Origin: Oceanicoccus sagamiensis
GTDB taxonomy: Bacteria > Pseudomonadota > Gammaproteobacteria > Pseudomonadales > Dasaniaceae
Direction of reading: 5' to 3'
DNA length: 64,000 nt
Assembly (NCBI RefSeq): GCF_002117105.1
Contig: NZ_CP019343.1
Location: 3,286,001 to 3,350,000 of the forward strand
The notes beneath the pieces were generated by a model. The model was given only the letters and a program-made list of their open reading frames with translations. It searched no databases and was not told where the DNA came from. Positions 16,348 to 62,584 of the stretch are shown one piece after another. A program made the position numbers and the translations under genes. Each line of letters opens with the position of its first letter. Within the stretch, counting starts at the first letter, position 1.

Positions 16348-18720
16348 ATGAATATTTGGGGAAACCAACTCACAGTTGCTGCCAAGCTAAATCAGCTGAT
16401 TTTGCTGACCACCGGTATTGCCGTTATTGTGGTGACAGCAACCGGTATGTTTACCGATTTCCAGCAAAACCGCAGTGAAGTCGTATCCTTGATGGATAGT
16501 CACGCCAAAGTGATTGGCAGCAATAATACCGCCGCCATTGTCTTTGATGAGCCTTTTAGCGCCAGAGAGTCCTTAAAATCCCTGGAAGTGGTTTCGGGTA
16601 TTGTTGTTGCTGCCATTTACAGCGATACCGGCACCTTATTTGCCAGTTATGCCGGTGACGACGAACTGGCTATTCCCGATGTGGCCGATGAAGGCTACTA
16701 CTTCAATGCCGAGCATGTTGACCTCTACCAGGCCATTATTCTGGATGGCGATAATATTGGTACCATCTTCCTTCGCTATGATATGTCGGAAGCTTATCAG
16801 GCTCTTCTACAAGAGCTATTTATGGATTTAGGGGTGGGCTTGCTGGCGATGCTATTGGCGGTATTTCTCGCCCATAGAGTGCAGCGCAGTATCACCGAGC
16901 CGATTCAGGCGCTCTCCAGCACTGCCCAGCAGGTTTCTGATTACGGCGATTACAGTGTTCGTGCACCGGTCACCAATAATGATGATATCGGTCAGCTAAC
17001 CAGTGTTCTCAATACCATGCTACAGCAGGTGCAGGACCGGGATAGAGAACTGGCGAATTCCAGAGATTTACTCGAGCAGCGTGTTATCGAGCGGACCGCA
17101 GAGCTTACCGTGGCCAAAGACCAGGCTGAGGCCGCCGCCCGTTCCAAGTCTCAGTTTTTAGCTGCCATGAGCCATGAGATCAGGACACCGCTCAACGGTG
17201 TGATTGGTATGGCCTCATTGGTCGCGGGCAGTGACCTTGATGAACAACAGCGAGACAGTATTGATACCATCCAGAGTTCCGCCGATGCCTTATTGGGGAT
17301 TATCAACGATATTCTTGATTTCTCTAAAATTGAAGCGGGGAAAATGGACCTGGAGTTTATTCCCTTTAACCTGAGAAGCAGCTTTGAAGACCTCGCCGAG
17401 GTAATGAAGCTAAAAGCAGCAGAAAAGAATATCTACCTGCAATTGCGTTTCGCCAAAGACCTTGCGGAAAACGTCAAAGGTGACCCAGGTCGAATCCGCC
17501 AGGTTATGATGAACTTTGTCAGCAATGCGGTGAAGTTTACCTCGGTGGGTGGCGTCATGATTGATGTGTCATCAACACCCATGGCGAATGGCAACCAGCT
17601 ATACCGCTTTGCGGTAGAAGATACCGGTATCGGTATATCAACCACCAAACTGGAACATGTCTTTGAAGAGTTTGCTCAGGCAGATAGTTCTACCACCCGA
17701 AAATATGGCGGCACCGGTCTGGGCCTGAGTATTTGTGCACTGCTGGCTAATTTGATGAACGGCAAAGTCGAAGTGCTGAGTCGAGAAGGTGAGGGTTCAA
17801 TATTCAGCTTGCTGCTGGAGCTTGAAACGGTTGAGTTGCCGGTGCTTGATAGCCCGGCTATGGATGAGCAAAACGCTGCCCTAAATATCCTTATTGTGGG
17901 TGATATCACCGGTCGTCACCAGCTAACCGCTGAATGGTGCCAACGCTGGGGAATGAATGCCCATGTTGTCACTAAGGCTGATGAAGCCATTCCTTTAATG
18001 CTTGAGGCTCATAAAGCCGGTAAACCCTTTGATACCGTCATCGCAGATGAGGCCATAGAACTACTCAACTGCCTTAGCCTGGCGAAGAATATTCGGCAGG
18101 AACCGCTCATTGCCGAGACCGCCTTATTATTAATTGCGATTGGTTCGCTGGGTGATAAAGGTCGTATTGTTGAAGATGCAGGCTTTAATGGATATTTATC
18201 AAGGCCGGTTAAAGAGAGTCATTTCCTAAAAACCCTGTTACAAATTAATCAGCAGTCCGCTGCCAGTTCTAAAGATTTTGTTACTCCCTTTACCTTTGCC
18301 GAGCACAAAGAGAATAAAATTACCGTTACCGATGGGCGGGTCAGTATCCTGCTGGCAGAGGACAATATCGTCAACCAGAAAGTGGCGGTACGGATGCTGG
18401 AAAAACTCGGTTGTAATGTGGATATCGCTGTTAATGGTAGCGAGGCCGTGGATATGTGGCAGGCCCAGCCCTACGATATGATCTTTATGGATTGCCATAT
18501 GCCGGTGCTGGATGGCTATCAGGCCACCGAAGAAATCCGCCGTATTGAGAATGGCGAGCGCCATATACCCATTGTGGCCTTAACCGCCAATGCTCTGGAA
18601 GGTGAGGCTCAGGTCTGTGCCGATGTGGGTATGGATGGTTTTATCGCCAAGCCCGTCAAAGTCAGTGATCTGGAAACGGTGATTATTGACTTTACCCAGA
18701 ACGATAAGCAGTCCGCTTAA
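16348..18720 (+). CDS. Hybrid sensor histidine kinase with periplasmic CHASE8-like sensor
   Basis: A 790-residue hybrid kinase. Membrane helices at about 15-35 and 150-172 enclose a periplasmic domain of about 115 residues ([20 protein letters not shown]), which resembles CHASE8. HAMP (about 175-245) and a short coil lead to HisKA with His276 in [13 protein letters not shown]. The ATPase domain has [18 protein letters not shown] and [11 protein letters not shown] first receiver-like domain (about 510-640) lacks a proper acceptor and is degenerate. The final receiver (about 665-785) is complete, with Asp715 in [15 protein letters not shown]. The architecture recalls BarA without the Hpt domain, so phosphate must pass to a separate Hpt or regulator outside the window. 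Confidence 0.93.
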
Positions 18721-18760: not shown

Positions 18761-18898
18761 CCTTGTTGCATGGCTTTGCTGCACAATGCCGTTGGCCGTT
18801 TTTGCCTTTAGCGGTTGGCTGATTTGGCCATTGTTCCAACAAGGCCCGGCAACGTTAAATTGGCATCCTTTTTTTTCAGCATTTTCAGAGATTTTAAA

Positions 18899-19576
18899 AT
18901 GAGTGAAGCATTACCTGTTATAGCAATTCTTGGTGGTACCGGTGATTTAGGTACTGGTTTGGCACGCCGTTGGGCGCAGGCCGGTTATCAGGTGATTATT
19001 GGCTCACGCACCGCCGATAAGGCTGAGACCGCCGCCGCCGATTTGCGGGGCATTATGAATGAGCGTGGTATCGAGGGCGTTAATGTACAGGCCATGGAAA
19101 ATCTGGCCGCCGCCGAAGCCGCTGATATCTGTGCTATGACCGTGCCTTTTGCCCATCAGCAGGGTACCCTGGAGCTGGTTAAAGACGCCTTAAAAGGCAA
19201 GATTCTGATTGATGTGACTGTGCCGCTAGTGCCGCCAAAAGTGGCCCGTGTACAGCTGCCGGAGCAGGGTTCTGCTGGCCAAATCGCCCAGAATATCCTC
19301 GGTGAAGAGGTGAATGTAGTCTCGGCATTTCAGAATGTAGCGGCTCACCATCTGCAAGAAGGCCAGGGCCTTAACTGTGATGTGATTGTTTGTGGCGATA
19401 AAAAAGCCGCCCGTGCTGCAGTGATTAGCCTGGTAGAAGCCGCCGGTATGCGCGGTTTCCATGGTGGCAGTATTGCCAATTCTGCGGCGACAGAAGCCCT
19501 GACCTCAGTACTGATTTTTATCAACAAACAGTACGGTTGTCATGCCGGTATCAGTATTACGGGTCTGGAAGACTAA
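18899..19576 (+). CDS. npdG: NADPH-dependent F420 reductase (F420:NADP oxidoreductase)
   Basis: Family members transfer hydride between NADP(H) and the deazaflavin F420. The 225-residue protein opens with a Rossmann motif of the NpdG type, AILGGTGDLGTGLARRWAQAG, followed by the phosphate-binding turn IGSRTADKAE, which favours NADP. Later family segments include MTVPFAHQQGTLELV, KILIDVTVPLVPPK and VVSAFQNVAAHHLQ. The ATG at 18899 fits; the frame is open to 18815, but the added 28 residues do not belong to the fold. It lies 21 bases before cofE and heads the F420 operon. With a biosynthetic set beside it, its likely role is loading F420 with electrons from NADPH. No F420H2-using enzyme is nearby. 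Confidence 0.93.
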   Translation: MSEALPVIAILGGTGDLGTGLARRWAQAGYQVIIGSRTADKAETAAADLRGIMNERGIEGVNVQAMENLAAAEAADICAMTVPFAHQQGTLELVKDALKGKILIDVTVPLVPPKVARVQLPEQGSAGQIAQNILGEEVNVVSAFQNVAAHHLQEGQGLNCDVIVCGDKKAARAAVISLVEAAGMRGFHGGSIANSAATEALTSVLIFINKQYGCHAGISITGLED

Positions 19577-19597
19577 ACCTCAGCGCAGCCTTATCCC

Positions 19598-20362
19598 ATG
19601 TCGCAAATGACACTAACAGCTCTGCCAAATTATCCCATGGTTGAACCCGGTGATGATCTGGCAGCGCAAATTCTCTCTTCTCTTAATGATGCAACACTGT
19701 CCCTGGCGGATGGTGATGTATTGGTATTGGCGCAAAAAATTGTGTCTAAAGCCGAGAACCGCTATGGCTATTACAATGCGGTGGAGCCCAGCGAAGAAGC
19801 AAAAAAGCTGGCTGTTGAGATTGATAAAGATCCCCGTTTGGTGGAGCTGATTTTATCCGAATCTAAAGAAGTGGTTCGCAAAAGGCCGGGCGTGGTGGTG
19901 GTTGAGCATCGCCTCGGCTATGTCCACGCCAATGCGGGTATCGATAAATCCAATATTAGTTCTGATGACGACAACCCCCGGGTGTTGTTATTACCACTGG
20001 ATTCCGATGCCAGTGCCAGAGGCTTGCAGCAGGCAATAGCGACACTGACGGGTAAGACCGTCTATATCATTATCAACGATAGTGCCGGCCGAGCATGGCG
20101 TAACGGTACTGCCGGCATGGCTATCGGTACCGCCGGTTTTGAACCGCTGGAAAATTTAATAGGCAGTAACGATTTATTTGAGCGCCCTATGGAAGTGACC
20201 GAAGTGGCTGTGGCCGATGAGTTGGCGGCGGCGGCCTCCTTTATGATGGGGCAGGCGGCAGAAGGCGCACCGGTGGTCCATATTCGCGGTGCCAAATTAC
20301 AAGCTGCCGATTGTGGCTCACGCAGTTTGATTCGTGAAAAAGCCAAAGACTTGTTCCGATGA
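19598..20362 (+). CDS. cofE: Coenzyme F420-0:L-glutamate ligase
   Basis: CofE adds L-glutamate to F420-0 in a GTP-dependent, non-ribosomal ligation. The 254-residue protein matches single-domain CofE or the N-terminal half of FbiB: GDDLAAQILSSL, GDVLVLAQKIVSKAENR, LILSESKEVVRKRPGVVVVE, HANAGIDKSNIS and the INDSAGRAWRNGTAGMAIG segment. It lacks the C-terminal FMN/nitroreductase-like domain of actinobacterial FbiB, which drives long poly-glutamate tails, so a short tail is expected (inference). A second possible start (ATG at 19607) lies three codons in. Its stop overlaps the cofD start as ATGA, implying translational coupling. Confidence 0.95.
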   Translation: MSQMTLTALPNYPMVEPGDDLAAQILSSLNDATLSLADGDVLVLAQKIVSKAENRYGYYNAVEPSEEAKKLAVEIDKDPRLVELILSESKEVVRKRPGVVVVEHRLGYVHANAGIDKSNISSDDDNPRVLLLPLDSDASARGLQQAIATLTGKTVYIIINDSAGRAWRNGTAGMAIGTAGFEPLENLIGSNDLFERPMEVTEVAVADELAAAASFMMGQAAEGAPVVHIRGAKLQAADCGSRSLIREKAKDLFR

Positions 20363-21393
20363 AATCGTATTCACTGCCTGCCGGTAAAAAAATTCTCGCT
20401 CTGTCCGGCGGTGTTGGTGGGGCTAAGCTGGCATTGGGTTTATCCAAAATACTGTCCCCGGAACAGCTGATAATTGCGGCTAATACTGCCGATGATTTTG
20501 AGCACTTGGGTCTATCGATTTCTCCCGACCTTGATACTGTGATGTATACCCTGGCAGATATCAATAATAAAGCATTGGGCTGGGGCCTTGCCGGCGAAAG
20601 TTGGAATGCTATGGATGCCCTTGAGACCTTGGGTGGCGATACCTGGTTTCGTCTGGGCGATAGAGATTTAGCCACGCACCTTGAGCGTAGCCAGCGCTTG
20701 GCCAAGGGTGAAAGCCTGAGCGCCGTTACTGCCCATCTATGCCGGCGTTTAGGTGTTAGTCACCGTATTATTCCCATGAGTGATGACGCTGTGCGTACTA
20801 AAGTCACTACGGCCGATGGCGAGTTAGCTTTTCAGGAATATTTTGTTCGCGAGCAATGCCAGCCAGCGATCAGTGATTTTTATTTTGACGGTATAGAGCA
20901 AGCTGCACCCCAGCAAGCTTTGATGGATTTACTCGCCAGTGACGAATTGGCGGCTATTATTATTTGCCCATCTAACCCTTTTGTCAGCGTTGAGCCCATC
21001 TTGCGTTTGGCCGGTGTAAGGGATGCGATGCGTAATAGTGCTGCCCCGGTTATTGCCATCTCACCCATTGTTGCCGGTATTGCCATTAAAGGGCCTGCGG
21101 CAAAAATGATGACAGAATTAAATATCCCTGCCACCGCCATCGGTGTTGCGGATTACTATGGGGATTTATTGGACGGCTTTATGATCGATAATAGTGATCA
21201 GTCACTGCTGCCCTCTATTGAGCAGTTAGGTCTTGATGTTTGCTCTGAACAGACCGTGATGAAAACCCTGGATGATCGCATTGCATTAGCGCAGGCAACC
21301 CTGGCTTATGCTAATCGGCTAACACAAAAAACAACACAAAAAACAACACAACAAACACTATCAGCCGTTGCTGATACAAGTGGTGAGCACTAA
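20359..21393 (+). CDS. cofD: 2-phospho-L-lactate (or related) transferase
   Basis: CofD transfers the phospho-acid moiety from its guanylyl-activated form (made by CofC) onto FO, giving F420-0 or a variant. The 344-residue protein starts with the nucleotide-binding loop ILALSGGVGGAKLALGLSKI. It continues with the family blocks NTADDFEHLGLSISPDLDTV, GGDTWFRLGDRDLATHLERS, MSDDAVRTKV and IICPSNPFVSVEPIL. The last ~25 residues are a low-complexity Gln/Thr/Lys tail from a short DNA repeat (21321-21357) and are probably dispensable. It overlaps cofE by four bases, and the next gene starts on the last base of its stop codon (TAATG). The exact acid used (phospholactate, PEP or phosphoglycerate) cannot be read from the sequence. 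Confidence 0.95.
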   Translation: MKSYSLPAGKKILALSGGVGGAKLALGLSKILSPEQLIIAANTADDFEHLGLSISPDLDTVMYTLADINNKALGWGLAGESWNAMDALETLGGDTWFRLGDRDLATHLERSQRLAKGESLSAVTAHLCRRLGVSHRIIPMSDDAVRTKVTTADGELAFQEYFVREQCQPAISDFYFDGIEQAAPQQALMDLLASDELAAIIICPSNPFVSVEPILRLAGVRDAMRNSAAPVIAISPIVAGIAIKGPAAKMMTELNIPATAIGVADYYGDLLDGFMIDNSDQSLLPSIEQLGLDVCSEQTVMKTLDDRIALAQATLAYANRLTQKTTQKTTQQTLSAVADTSGEH

Positions 21394-24300
21394 TGGTTTG
21401 GGCCTTACTTCCATTAAAAGATTTTGTAAATGCCAAGCAGCGTTTGTCCGGTGTGTTGGCAGCCCACGAGCGCCGGCATTTATTTCATACCATGGTTGAG
21501 GATGTGTTGGATATATTAGCCAACCATCCCATGATTGATAATACGGTGATTGTGTCTGATGATCCCAGTGCTGAGCTATTAGCGGATCGTTATCAATTAA
21601 GCTGTTGGGCTGAATCATCTTTAGCCCTTGCACCGGACGTTAAAGGCTTAACCGCTGTTGTTGATGCGGCGGCGGCAAAGTTGGCAGAGCAGGGCGTTGA
21701 TTCCATGTTGGTGGTCCACGGTGATTTACCGCTATTAGATGCGGCCGATATCCAGCGCTTATTGGAAGTTCATCAAGAGCAGGTTTTACCGGGTATTACC
21801 ATCGCCCCCGATGCCGTCAAAGATGGCAGTAACTGTGTGGTGGCAACACCACCTAATGCTATTCAATTTCAGTATGGCAAGGGTAGCTTTGAAAAGCATA
21901 TGGCCGCGGCGGCTGAGGAAAAAGTGTCAGCGGCGATGGTTGCTTTGCCCTCTGCCGCGATGGATATCGATAACCCCTCTGACTTACAGGGCTTATTAAC
22001 GATTGAGCAAGTGGGTATCGCTAAACATACCCTGACTTATTTACAAGAAAGCGGGTTAAAGGAACGCTTAAATACCATGCTGGATAATCAGTTTGCCCCC
22101 TTGGGTGATGAAGTGGATGCGCTATTAGAAAAATCTTTGGCCGGTGAATTACTCACCAATACTCAGGCATTGATATTGGCGGAGGATCGGTTTTCTTCAC
22201 AGCAGTATACTGAAAAATTAATGCTGGCAGCGAGTCAGCTCCGCGACCAGGGCTTTCGCAATGTGGTCACTTATTCGCGCAAAGTGTTTATTCCGCTAAC
22301 TCATCTATGCAGAGATGTTTGCCATTACTGCACCTTTGCTCAAACGCCGAAAAAAATTCCCGCACCCTATATGTCGGTTGACGAGGTGTTGGCGTCGGTG
22401 CGCGCTGGTGTGGCGCAGGGTTGTAAAGAAGCCTTATTTACCTTGGGTGAAAAGCCGGAGCTGCGTTATAGCGCCGCTAGAAATGCGTTGGCGGACATGG
22501 GTTTTGAAACCACGCTTGAATATGTGGCTCATGTTGCCAAAAGGGTGTTTGAGGAAACCGGTATTCTGCCCCATATTAATGCCGGCTGTATGACTGCCGA
22601 TGAAATCGAATTATTGCGCCCGGTTTCCGCCTCTATGGGTATTATGCTGGAATCAGCTTCAAGTCGTTTATGTGAAAAGGGGATGCCGCATTATGGTTCT
22701 CCGGATAAAGACCCCGCGGTTCGTTTAGAAACGATTGAATTGGCTGGTCAAGCCAGTGTGCCGTTTACTTCAGGTATTTTAATCGGTATTGGTGAAACCA
22801 GAGCCGAGCGAATTGAATCCCTGTTAGCCTTGCGAGCCAGCCATCTAAAGCATGGCCATCTGCAAGAAATTATTGTGCAGAACTTCCGGGCCAAAGAGCA
22901 AACAAAAATGGCTCAGGCTCCCGAGCCTGATCTCAATGAATTGCTGTGGACGATTGCCGCAACACGTATTATTTTTGGTGATGGCATTAGCATTCAGGCG
23001 CCGCCCAATCTTAGCCCTGGTGTCTTACCCAAAATTGTTAATTCCGGTATTAATGACTGGGGCGGAGTGTCGCCGATCACGCCTGACTTTGTTAACCCAG
23101 AAGCCCCTTGGCCCCATGTGGAAAAACTGGCTAAAGAAACCGCAGTGGCCGGTAAATATTTGCATGAGCGTTTAACGATTTACCCGAATTTTGCTCTGGA
23201 CGGTAAAAAGTGGCTGCACGAAGACTTACAAACCCCTGTGTTAAGGATGATTGATGCGGAAGGCTTTCCCCGCGTTGATGAGTGGGCACCGGGTGAGTCG
23301 GTTGATCCTCCGGCTAGCATCATGCAGCAGCTCAAGGCGCAATCGCTATCCCATATTTCTGTGGATATTCAACAGATTGTCGCCAAGGCCAGGGCGGGTA
23401 GCGCTTTGACCGAAGCTAATTTAGTGCGCTTGTTTCAGGCTCGGGGCGATGACTTTTCTTATGTCTGCCAGCAGGCCGATCAATTTCGCCAGCAACTGAA
23501 TGGCGATACGGTGTCCTATGTGGTTAATCGCAATATTAACTATACCAATATCTGTTATTTTAAATGCCAGTTCTGTGCCTTTTCAAAAGGGAAGCTGAGC
23601 GAAAACCTGCGTGGCCGTCCCTATGATTTAGGCCATGAAGAAATTACTCGCCGCTGCAATGAGGCCTGGCAGCGCGGCGCTACAGAAGTGTGTATGCAAG
23701 GGGGTATTCACCCTGAGTATACCGGTGATACCTATCTTGAAATCTTAAAAACGGTTAAAGCCGCCACGCCGGATATGCATATCCATGCCTTCTCTCCGCT
23801 AGAGGTTTGGCAGGGTGCGGCGACGTTGGGTATTTCCCTGCACGCTTTTCTCAAGCAATTAAAAGAGGCCGGTTTAAATACCTTGCCCGGCACAGCGGCG
23901 GAAGTTTTGGACGATGAAGTCAGGGCCGATCTCTGTCCCGATAAAATCAATACCGAGCAGTGGTTGGAGGTGATGGAGACCGCCCACGGTTTAGGCTTTA
24001 AAACCACCGCCACCATTATGTATGGTCATATTGAAAAGCATCAGCACTGGGCCCGACATTTATTAAGAGTCAGCCAGCTACAGCAAAAAACCGGCGGCTT
24101 TACCGAGTTTGTACCCTTGCCCTTTGTTCATATGGAAGCGCCGCTCTATCTAAAAGGTAAGGCCCGCACCGGCCCAACCTTTAGAGAAGCCTTGCTAATG
24201 CATGCCGTTGCTCGTCTGGCCTTATCGCCCCATATCCCCAATATCCAAACGTCCTGGGTCAAAATGGGAGAGCAGGGCATTGTGGCTTGCCTGGAGGCGG

Positions 24301-24575
24301 GTGCCAATGATCTGGGGGGGACGCTGATGAATGAGACGATTACTCGTGCTGCGGGCTCTGAACATGGCCAGGAGTGCTCGCCTGAGACGATGGAGGCTCT
24401 CATTGGCTTGGCTGGGCGGGAGGCCAAACGCCGCTCTACGGTTTATGGTGAGGTTTCAACAGAGCGAATTGAAACGGCTTTACGTGCAGAGCCTTTGGTT
24501 GACGTGGTTAATACGCCGGTAAAAAAATATGATCGCAAGTCATCAGGCAAAGTGCAGCTGATTGCCAACGCCTAA
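21393..24575 (+). CDS. fbiC: CofC-CofG-CofH fusion: side-chain guanylyltransferase plus FO synthase
   Basis: A 1060-residue three-enzyme protein. Residues 1 to about 210 are a CofC guanylyltransferase (LLPLKDFVNAKQRLSGVL, VHGDLPLLDAADIQRLL, MDIDNPSDLQGL), which activates the side-chain acid with GTP. Residues about 240-600 are CofG, a radical SAM enzyme with its 4Fe-4S ligands at Cys306, Cys310 and Cys313 (CRDVCHYC). Residues about 645-1050 are CofH, also radical SAM, with Cys721, Cys725 and Cys728 (CYFKCQFC). CofG and CofH together form the deazaflavin FO from tyrosine and a pyrimidine intermediate. CofG-CofH fusion alone is the known FbiC; the added CofC is unusual. The start overlaps the cofD stop (TAATG). 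A mosaic repeat begins 5 bases after the stop. Confidence 0.96.
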   Translation: MVWALLPLKDFVNAKQRLSGVLAAHERRHLFHTMVEDVLDILANHPMIDNTVIVSDDPSAELLADRYQLSCWAESSLALAPDVKGLTAVVDAAAAKLAEQGVDSMLVVHGDLPLLDAADIQRLLEVHQEQVLPGITIAPDAVKDGSNCVVATPPNAIQFQYGKGSFEKHMAAAAEEKVSAAMVALPSAAMDIDNPSDLQGLLTIEQVGIAKHTLTYLQESGLKERLNTMLDNQFAPLGDEVDALLEKSLAGELLTNTQALILAEDRFSSQQYTEKLMLAASQLRDQGFRNVVTYSRKVFIPLTHLCRDVCHYCTFAQTPKKIPAPYMSVDEVLASVRAGVAQGCKEALFTLGEKPELRYSAARNALADMGFETTLEYVAHVAKRVFEETGILPHINAGCMTADEIELLRPVSASMGIMLESASSRLCEKGMPHYGSPDKDPAVRLETIELAGQASVPFTSGILIGIGETRAERIESLLALRASHLKHGHLQEIIVQNFRAKEQTKMAQAPEPDLNELLWTIAATRIIFGDGISIQAPPNLSPGVLPKIVNSGINDWGGVSPITPDFVNPEAPWPHVEKLAKETAVAGKYLHERLTIYPNFALDGKKWLHEDLQTPVLRMIDAEGFPRVDEWAPGESVDPPASIMQQLKAQSLSHISVDIQQIVAKARAGSALTEANLVRLFQARGDDFSYVCQQADQFRQQLNGDTVSYVVNRNINYTNICYFKCQFCAFSKGKLSENLRGRPYDLGHEEITRRCNEAWQRGATEVCMQGGIHPEYTGDTYLEILKTVKAATPDMHIHAFSPLEVWQGAATLGISLHAFLKQLKEAGLNTLPGTAAEVLDDEVRADLCPDKINTEQWLEVMETAHGLGFKTTATIMYGHIEKHQHWARHLLRVSQLQQKTGGFTEFVPLPFVHMEAPLYLKGKARTGPTFREALLMHAVARLALSPHIPNIQTSWVKMGEQGIVACLEAGANDLGGTLMNETITRAAGSEHGQECSPETMEALIGLAGREAKRRSTVYGEVSTERIETALRAEPLVDVVNTPVKKYDRKSSGKVQLIANA

Positions 24576-24579
24576 AGCT

Positions 24580-24943
24580 GTCATTCCTGTTTCTGCGCAT
24601 TGCTGTCCCCAATAAAGTCATGCGTCGTTTTCTTGCTTTTTGGGTTGTTGATTTGCTGAGTGTGGCTGGCCAGCTCCGCACTTGGCACGTTTACGCTTTC
24701 TTTCTGTAGGGTGGATTATAATCCACCGATGATGGCGGTTTCTGGCTGGGCTTGGTGGATTATAATCCACCCTACAGGCTGTGAGGGCTTTGGTTTCACG
24801 AGTCTTTAGGGACTGTTCCCTGAAACCCCGGCCCGTGCGTCACTTCCAATGTAGGCCATCATCCCTTCAAGGCTCGGCACTGGCATACCTCTAGCCAGAT
24901 ACAGATATTGGCCCCGGGCAGCAATGCGCCTGCGCGGGAATAT
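24580..24943. repeat. Mosaic repeat element, copy A, filling the gap after the F420 operon
   Basis: This non-coding gap (24576-25034) is built of repeat pieces shared with 45526-45863: an opening GTCATTCC, a GTCGTTTTcTTGCTTT block, the paired-palindrome core at 24706-24775, then GTGAGGGCTTtGGTTTCACGAG, CATACCTCTA and a closing CGCGGGAAT. No gene is visible. The sequence from about 24944 to 25034 should hold the promoter of the lipoprotein gene, but I could not place its boxes. Confidence 0.65.
24706..24775. repeat. Paired-palindrome repeat, copy 1
   Basis: Two copies of the perfect 18-base palindrome GGTGGATTATAATCCACC, extended outward by GTAG and CTAC, form a 70-base inverted repeat. Other copies are at 27723, 45604 and 62515. 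Confidence 0.9.
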
Positions 24944-26465: not shown

Positions 26466-27152
26466 ATGAGCAACAATTCACCCAATATTAAGATGGACCC
26501 CTCATGGCTCAACGTGATGGGGGATGAGTTTGAGCAGCCTTATATGCAGGCGCTGAAAAATTTTCTACAGGCAGAAAAACAGGCAGGCAAGGTGATCTAC
26601 CCGCCCTGTAAGGATTGGTTTAATGCCTTTAATACCACACCTTTTGATCAGGTAAAGATAGTGGTATTGGGGCAGGACCCTTATCACGGCCCGGGTCAGG
26701 CCCATGGCTTATGTTTTTCGGTATTGCCGGGTATTCGTATTCCACCGTCGCTATTAAATATTTATAAAGAGATTCATGCTGATATGGGGTTGCCCATACC
26801 TGCCCATGGTTGTTTACAGTCTTGGGCGGAGCAGGGGGTATTGTTACTGAATGCAACGCTAACCGTAGAACAGGCCAATGCCGGTGCGCATCAACATCAA
26901 GGTTGGGAGCAATTTACCGACCGTGCTATTGCCCAGCTTAATGCGATGCGCGAAGGGCTGGTATTTTTATTGTGGGGCAGTTACGCACAAAAGAAAGGCC
27001 AGTTAATTGATAGCAATAAGCACTTGGTGTTAAAAGCGCCGCACCCATCGCCGTTATCAGCCCATCGTGGCTTTTTGGGCTGTAGGCATTTTTCCCAAGC
27101 CAATGCTTATTTACAGCAGCAGGGTAAGCCGGCCATCGATTGGTCGGTTTAA
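26466..27152 (+). CDS. ung: Uracil-DNA glycosylase
   Basis: Ung removes uracil from DNA to start base-excision repair. The 228-residue family 1 enzyme has the water-activating loop [20 protein letters not shown] with catalytic Asp, the [11 protein letters not shown] segment, and the minor-groove loop [20 protein letters not shown] with catalytic His. AGGGATT lies before the ATG. The length matches the family. It is divergent from the truncated globin gene across about 98 bases and is followed by a small STAS/SpoIIAA-like gene on the same strand. Confidence 0.98.
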
Positions 27153-27722: not shown

Positions 27723-27793
27723 GCAGGGTGGATTATAATCCACCAAGGCCCTGCTCAGAGTAGCCATATCCGGTGGATTATAATCCACCCTAC
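27723..27793. repeat. Paired-palindrome repeat, copy 2
   Basis: Two GGTGGATTATAATCCACC palindromes, 71 bases in all, in the gap 27601-27877 that holds only repeats. The left end is GCAG instead of GTAG; the right end is CTAC. Confidence 0.9.
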
Positions 27794-45525: not shown

Positions 45526-45863
45526 GTCATTCCCGCCTTCGTGCATGGCCGTACCGAATAAACGACTGTGTCGTTTTTTGCTTTCTTCCAAGACGTTTAG
45601 TTCGTAGGGTGGATTTTAATCCACCGGTGATAACGGCTCCTGGCTGGGCTTGGTGGATTTTAATCCACCCTACAGATGAATGGGTGAGGGCTTGGGTTTC
45701 ACGAGCCTTGGGCCTGCCCGCGACCGAAGGGAGTGCTTTGGGTAAAGGGGGCAACTTGTAGCGTCCCCTGACATACCTCTAACGACTAAAGATATTTATC
45801 CTCTACAGCGGAGGGACTCAGCGATTAAAAGGCGGTCCAGCTTCCCGCCTTCGCGGGAATAAC
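45526..45863. repeat. Mosaic repeat element, copy B
   Basis: It fills the whole gap between mazG and the next gene. It begins with GTCATTCCCGCC on the base after the mazG stop. It shares with copy A (24580-24943) the block GTCGTTTTtTTGCTTT, the paired-palindrome core, GTGAGGGCTTgGGTTTCACGAG and CATACCTCTA. It ends with TTCCCGCC-TT-CGCGGGAATAAC, a damaged REP palindrome. No gene is seen in it. Confidence 0.7.
45604..45673. repeat. Paired-palindrome repeat, copy 3
   Basis: Two copies of GGTGGATTTTAATCCACC, one base off the perfect palindrome and identical to each other, bounded by GTAG and CTAC over 70 bases. The spacer (GGCTGGGCT near its right end) is close to that of copy 1. Confidence 0.9.
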
Positions 45864-62514: not shown

Positions 62515-62584
62515 GTAGGGTGGATTACAATCCACCAAACCCAGCCATGGGCTGCTATAAACGGTGGATTATAATCCACCCTAC
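62515..62584. repeat. Paired-palindrome repeat, copy 4
   Basis: GGTGGATTACAATCCACC (one change) and GGTGGATTATAATCCACC, bounded by GTAG and CTAC over 70 bases, between the valS start and the end of the frameshifted gene. The rest of 62332-62612 shows no gene. Confidence 0.9.

Follow-up and report, generated by a model that had tools for sequence, protein, structure and literature searches.

The redox cofactor F420 is best known from methanogens and mycobacteria, and most discussion of it concerns archaea and actinobacteria. How do the F420 genes of a gammaproteobacterium compare with the systems already described? We analyzed a 64,000-nucleotide stretch of the Oceanicoccus sagamiensis chromosome (the window), in which npdG, cofE, cofD, and a three-part cofC-cofG-cofH fusion form a real, conserved, and probably working F420 operon with an unusual fusion. 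The proteobacterial pathway, as set out in the accessible sections of PMC8498797, uses the same enzymes (CofC, CofD, CofE, and an FbiC-type CofGH), and the CofG-CofH fusion (FbiC) is common to the window, proteobacteria, and actinobacteria; in contrast, the window has CofC fused ahead of CofGH and a gammaproteobacterial host. The word stem “gammaproteo” does not occur in the accessible main text of PMC8498797, the organisms of its Table 4 aside. The mycobacterial Fbi pathway (FbiA, FbiB, FbiC, and FbiD) resembles the window in its 2-phospholactate (2-PL)- or phosphoenolpyruvate (PEP)-type CofC residues and FbiC-like CofGH, whereas in the window CofE stands alone, without the C-terminal reductase domain of FbiB, and the FbiD-like and FbiC-like parts make up one protein. 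Mycetohabitans, the producer of 3-phosphoglycerate-type F420 (3PG-F420), is likewise Gram-negative, and its CofC/CofD/CofE route also includes no known reductase step, but the window CofC lacks the diagnostic Ser/Thr. Operons of Chloroflexi (Anaerolineales; for example, L049, L052, and L077) also place npdG-cofE upstream of cofD-cofC; there, however, a nitroreductase gene and a PNPOx-like gene (12 and 11 loci by neighbor clustering; Pfam on the L049 members) lie between cofE and cofD, and the operon of the window has neither at that position. A literature search that left out most subscription papers found no description of this F420 operon in gammaproteobacteria or of a CofC-CofG-CofH fusion, which does not prove absence from print.

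Family assignments were made with NCBIfam models, by comparing bit scores with each model's cut-off, and Pfam was used for domains. NpdG scores 194.3 bits against the TIGR01915 equivalog cut-off of 149.8, matches PF03807, and resembles the solved F420:NADP oxidoreductases 5n2i (E = 5.1e-40) and 1jax. CofE (TIGR01916, 250.9 vs. 180.65) matches the solved CofE structures 2phn, 7uld, and 2g9i and, at 254 aa, consists of the ligase domain alone, with no nitroreductase domain of the mycobacterial FbiB type. CofD (TIGR01819, 287.2 vs. 257.45) matches 3c3d, a CofD, and 6uvx, a phosphoenolpyruvate transferase. The fusion exceeds the cut-offs for CofGH as a whole (NF006687, 1141.3 vs. 1018) and for its CofH (TIGR03551, 557.7 vs. 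374.1), CofG (TIGR03550, 492.8 vs. 213.35), and CofC (TIGR03552, 129.6 vs. 105) parts, and its CofG and CofH domains each carry a CX3CX2C sequence, which we take to be the radical-SAM motif (Table 1). A gap of 21 bases separates npdG from cofE, while cofE overlaps cofD by 4 bases and cofD overlaps the fusion by 1 base; npdG is taken to start with the ATG at 18899, but its frame is also open from a TTG at 18815. Thus, the tight packing and the overlapping start and stop codons of the last three genes, both reported by a first-pass annotation of the DNA made from its letters, were recovered with the same coordinates, frames, and order. That annotation also called the operon complete, which covers the CofC/D/E/G/H core only: none of the known types of dehydro-F420 reductase was recognized, so completeness is unproven if PEP is the precursor. 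Its proposal that F420 is reduced with NADPH is in line with the NpdG score.

Table 1. Coordinates, strand, and basis of assignment for the F420 genes, their domains, and two flanking genes in the window.
Feature	Position	Strand	Basis
Hybrid histidine kinase (upstream neighbor, outside the pathway)	16348-18720	+	Pfam
npdG, NADPH:F420 reductase	18899-19576	+	TIGR01915, PF03807, solved relatives
cofE, F420-0:L-glutamate ligase, stand-alone	19598-20362	+	TIGR01916
cofD, puts 3-carbon phospho-acid onto FO	20359-21393	+	TIGR01819
cofC-cofG-cofH fusion, 1060 aa (guanylyltransferase and two radical-SAM FO synthase domains)	21393-24575	+	NCBIfam
CofC domain, approximately residues 1-222	21393-22058	+	PF01983 (residues 4-222); phmmer to 7p97, 6bwg, 2i5e
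Codon of Gly162, counterpart of Mycetohabitans CofC Ser162	21876-21878	+	Alignments
CofG domain, residues 293-614, CRDVCHYC (CX3CX2C)	22269-23234	+	TIGR03550
CofH domain, residues 673-1021, CYFKCQFC (CX3CX2C)	23409-24455	+	TIGR03551
ung, uracil-DNA glycosylase (downstream site marker, outside the pathway)	26466-27152	+	PF03167

Taken together, gene identity by family models, gene order, conservation, and co-occurrence lead us to infer the catalytic steps, the exact form of the cofactor, and its role; the region is very likely a working F420 biosynthesis operon whose F420H2 serves luciferase-like (LLM) enzymes. The CofG and CofH domains would synthesize the deazaflavin FO, while the CofC domain would use GTP to activate a 3-carbon phospho-acid (2-PL or PEP, judging by its residues), which CofD would link to FO. 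CofE would then add glutamates, NpdG would reduce F420 with NADPH, and the resulting F420H2 would pass to luciferase-like oxidoreductases encoded elsewhere in the genome, with a likely role in hydride transfer during lipid or aromatic catabolism.

Is the operon peculiar to O. sagamiensis? We sampled 245 genomes of its order (completeness of at least 90% requested) together with 14 control genomes. TIGR01819 matched 74 of the 245 at E ≤ 0.001, eight of which (E = 1.6e-5 to 7.1e-4; 19.5 to 25.1 bits) were dropped as distant relatives, leaving cofD in 66 genomes: 64 above the cut-off, 1 just under it, and 1 with the gene split across two contigs. Six controls matched the model, three of them above the cut-off. 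Within the host's family, cofD was found in 5 of 10 genomes, always above the cut-off. The first-pass annotation had treated proteobacterial F420 producers as fewer, and at 66/245 the find is less exceptional than it implied. The operon belongs to a broader group that has been little studied and is not a peculiarity of the O. sagamiensis genome. Loci were compared using the best 80 of 234 CofD relatives found by a contig scan, and in 34 of the 80, including loci from Spongiibacteraceae, Halieaceae, Microbulbifer, and Porticoccaceae, all six genes share a strand and a span of no more than 7.5 kb, arranged npdG-cofE-cofD-cofC-cofG-cofH; this repeated order excludes chance as the source of the operon. 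Some of the other 46 loci lie on short contigs, and others (Chloroflexi and alphaproteobacteria) are ordered differently. Named strains among the loci with the genes are Microbulbifer agarilyticus, Spongiibacter marinus, Litorivivens lipolytica, and Kineobactrum sediminis. One further locus (L066), on a metagenome-assembled contig titled Klebsiella pneumoniae, carries nearly the same operon as an uncultured gammaproteobacterium (L061) and is probably from a mislabeled bin.

We then asked which enzymes might use the cofactor. The O. sagamiensis genome (G000) contains 10 matches to PF00296, the LLM family; the other cofD-carrying genomes of the family contain 2, 19, 23, and 17 (G006, G007, G008, and G003), and those lacking cofD contain 6, 1, 0, 0, and 0 (G001, G002, G004, G005, and G009). 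Nine of the 10 proteins were scanned (the tenth is the second fragment of a gene whose frame is broken), and six scored above the cut-offs of F420-named families: L105 (TIGR03841), L106 and L107 (TIGR03559), L109 (TIGR03564), L111 (TIGR03619), and L112 (TIGR03621). The first-pass annotation had expected F420-dependent enzymes elsewhere in the genome, and these six candidates agree with it, as does the way in which two F420-linked families track cofD across the order. Of the 50 genomes with PF04075, the Ddn-like F420H2 quinone reductase family, 49 carry cofD (within the family, PF04075 is in 4/4 of the other cofD carriers and 0/5 of the genomes without cofD), and of the 54 in which TIGR03559 is above its cut-off, 53 do. 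At a looser threshold (E ≤ 0.001), TIGR03559 matches extend to 166 genomes, with other LLM proteins among them. The sole exception to both patterns is G183, a 220-contig draft whose genus code is common to two cofD genomes. By family, one or both of PF04075 and TIGR03559 are present in 15 of the 20 families with cofD. The remaining scanned LLM proteins fell below the cut-offs (L108, 153.9 vs. 166.9; L110, none) or, in the case of the first piece of L113, were of the MsnO8 type. The L113 gene (5964-6943, + strand) runs across two reading frames and is either broken or affected by a sequencing error.

The proposed catabolic role draws on the neighbors of the six LLM genes, 10 of which were hand-picked for Pfam, none of them from L111. 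Acyl-CoA dehydrogenases and an AMP-binding enzyme lie near L105, an RraA-like gene and an isocitrate-lyase-family gene near L106, SnoaL-like, thiolase-like, and AMP-binding genes near L107, a Rieske ring-hydroxylating oxygenase gene near L109, and a molybdopterin oxidoreductase gene near L112. Because several LLM genes adjoin acyl-CoA or Rieske oxygenase genes, we infer that a catabolic role of the F420-type LLM proteins is likely.

Several observations weigh against a working operon with LLM users. PF04075 has no match in the O. sagamiensis genome itself. The PNPOx-like family (PF01243) has nine matches there, eight of which were scanned, and none of the eight reaches an F420-family cut-off (best 55.0 vs. 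79.05); one of the eight is HutZ-like but under the HutZ cut-off. The Fisher test of association with cofD (P = 1e-35 for PF04075 and 5e-40 for TIGR03559) ignores relatedness, and the contrast within the family is drawn from 10 genomes, of which G009 (64%) and G003 (83%) are incomplete. Neither PF04075 nor TIGR03559 is above its cut-off in any of the 14 controls, which therefore include no positive control, and the F420 names of these families are annotations. Eleven of the 66 cofD genomes, from five families, have neither family above cut-off (G035, G067, G094, G099, G129, G139, G158, G177, G227, G231, and G245, six of them in family f24). PNPOx-like proteins were considered as users in these 11 genomes, but with one to four matches each vs. 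one to three in 13 relatives lacking cofD, the contrast is not clear. The last two points concern the reductase: the FbiB C-terminal cut-off is exceeded in none of the 10 family genomes, and the best match in O. sagamiensis, L125, is a BluB, above the BluB cut-off.

If PEP is the precursor, a reductase is required, and the end product might then be unreduced dehydro-F420. This we consider improbable, although it is the alternative that survives best. The missing FbiB C-terminal homolog speaks for it, as does a profile built on the nitroreductase of the Chloroflexi operons (A1), which was rejected as a guide to the missing enzyme: it matches 146/245 genomes at E ≤ 1e-12, and its best match here is BluB (E = 4e-20), no better than in the congeners G004 and G005 (about 3e-21), which lack cofD. 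Weaker FbiB C-terminal matches occur in 9/10 family genomes and 11/14 controls. On the other side, a 2-PL route needs no reductase, and the CofC assays described in the accessible parts of PMC8764529 cannot separate 2-PL from PEP as the in vivo substrate; an unrelated enzyme may perform the reduction; and dehydro-F420 is called less stable in those parts of the same paper. The nitroreductase L126 was also tried as the missing reductase, but its relatives (E ≤ 1e-25) occur in only 17/245 genomes, and because 49 of the 66 cofD genomes lack one, it is not the general enzyme. All 17 carrier genomes have cofD, and L126 (4397-5050, − strand) and its relatives may belong to F420-linked catabolism.

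Could the product instead be 3PG-F420, as in the betaproteobacterial endosymbiont Mycetohabitans? The host is Gram-negative, this route would remove the need for a reductase, and the best solved CofC relative found by phmmer is the 3PG enzyme 7p97 (67.1 bits). However, according to the accessible parts of PMC8764529, the mark of 3-phosphoglycerate use in the Mycetohabitans CofC is Ser162, with contributions from Met91 and Cys95. The window CofC has Gly at the Ser162 position in two alignments, rather than the Ser or Thr expected of a 3PG-F420 enzyme, with Leu for Met91 and Val for Cys95 in the phmmer alignment. On Gly162 we rejected 3PG-F420 as the product, which is very unlikely, and 2-PL or PEP, rather than 3-phosphoglycerate, is therefore the predicted CofC substrate. 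Elsewhere among the loci, 10 CofC proteins (L025, L030, L032, L036-L039, L042, L046, and L050; mostly alphaproteobacterial) have two inserted residues, with Ala, Ser, or Thr near the specificity position, and some of these could use 3-phosphoglycerate.

CofC and CofG are both present in 50 of the 80 scan loci and share one open frame in eight of them (L002, L023, L026, L033, L034, L043, L055, and L057); the fusion also occurs in the window and in the congeners G007 and G008. A CofGH tree was built from 37 rows, none actinobacterial or archaeal, of which 11 are fused. Four of the fused rows (the window, L114, L115, and L002) group together with support (98/90), and the remaining seven fall inside Halieaceae-like rows. 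The approximately unbiased test rejects a single clade for the 11 fused rows (P = 0.0002), the minimum number of changes is three, and the linkers vary from group to group; the fusion thus probably arose more than once, although one gain followed by several losses may also account for it. More tentatively, a repeatedly evolved CofC-CofG-CofH might couple FO synthesis to linker activation in an F420 pathway that dispenses with a reductase of known kind, whether through an unrecognized enzyme, a supply of 2-PL, or dehydro-F420 as the working cofactor.

Neighbor clustering covered 83 loci (part of the window, two congeners, and the 80 scan loci). Counting the window, ung flanks or lies near the operon in 17/83 loci, a ygfZ-like gene in 15/83, and a GGDEF-EAL gene in 13/83. 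This site, common to the window and Halieaceae, argues for old, vertical inheritance in those families, and the ung counts suggest that the operon itself was inherited vertically. The operon could instead be a recent horizontal import of unsettled role: it is patchy in the family (5/10 genomes, two of the ten incomplete), and the accessible parts of PMC8764529 name actinobacteria as the most likely gene source for Gram-negatives. Yet the gene order, and in part the site, are the same as in Halieaceae, CofGH clusters with same-genus and Spongiibacteraceae rows (in trees without actinobacterial rows), and the F420-linked families track cofD, all of which make an import highly doubtful. In a quick CofD tree (83 rows, none actinobacterial or archaeal) the window is nearest L114, L115, and L002, without starred support. 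Least probable of all is that FO serves mainly as a photolyase light-harvesting chromophore with F420 incidental, for although FO comes from the same CofG/CofH and 11/66 cofD relatives lack both tested user families, the window also encodes CofC, CofD, CofE, and NpdG, the same set is found together in other loci, and the genome has F420-type LLM proteins.

The genome that carries the operon is a single contig of 4.47 Mb. Downstream lie genes for a DUF6279 protein, a globin, ung, an HDOD protein, and a GCV_T-domain protein, which is presumably YgfZ-like. A scan for promoter-like sites (9 vs. 8.1 expected) gave chance levels and one for terminator-like sites gave 12 vs. 7.6; neither was used. 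An 18-base palindrome, GGTGGATTATAATCCACC, occurs eight times with at most two mismatches (0.01 expected), as four pairs 44 to 45 bases apart (24710-24771, 27727-27789, 45608-45669, and 62519-62580). It is a small dispersed repeat element, and one pair stands directly 3′ of the F420 operon.

What would these genes mean for the group? How proteobacteria supply the 3-carbon linker, and with which reductase, becomes a testable question, and a natural three-part enzyme becomes available for F420 production in E. coli. The interest lies less in the existence of the operon than in the breadth of gammaproteobacterial F420 genes with likely users, together with the missing reductase: cofD is present in approximately a quarter of the sampled genomes in one gammaproteobacterial order, and most of these also encode F420-linked enzyme families, in some cases next to catabolic genes.

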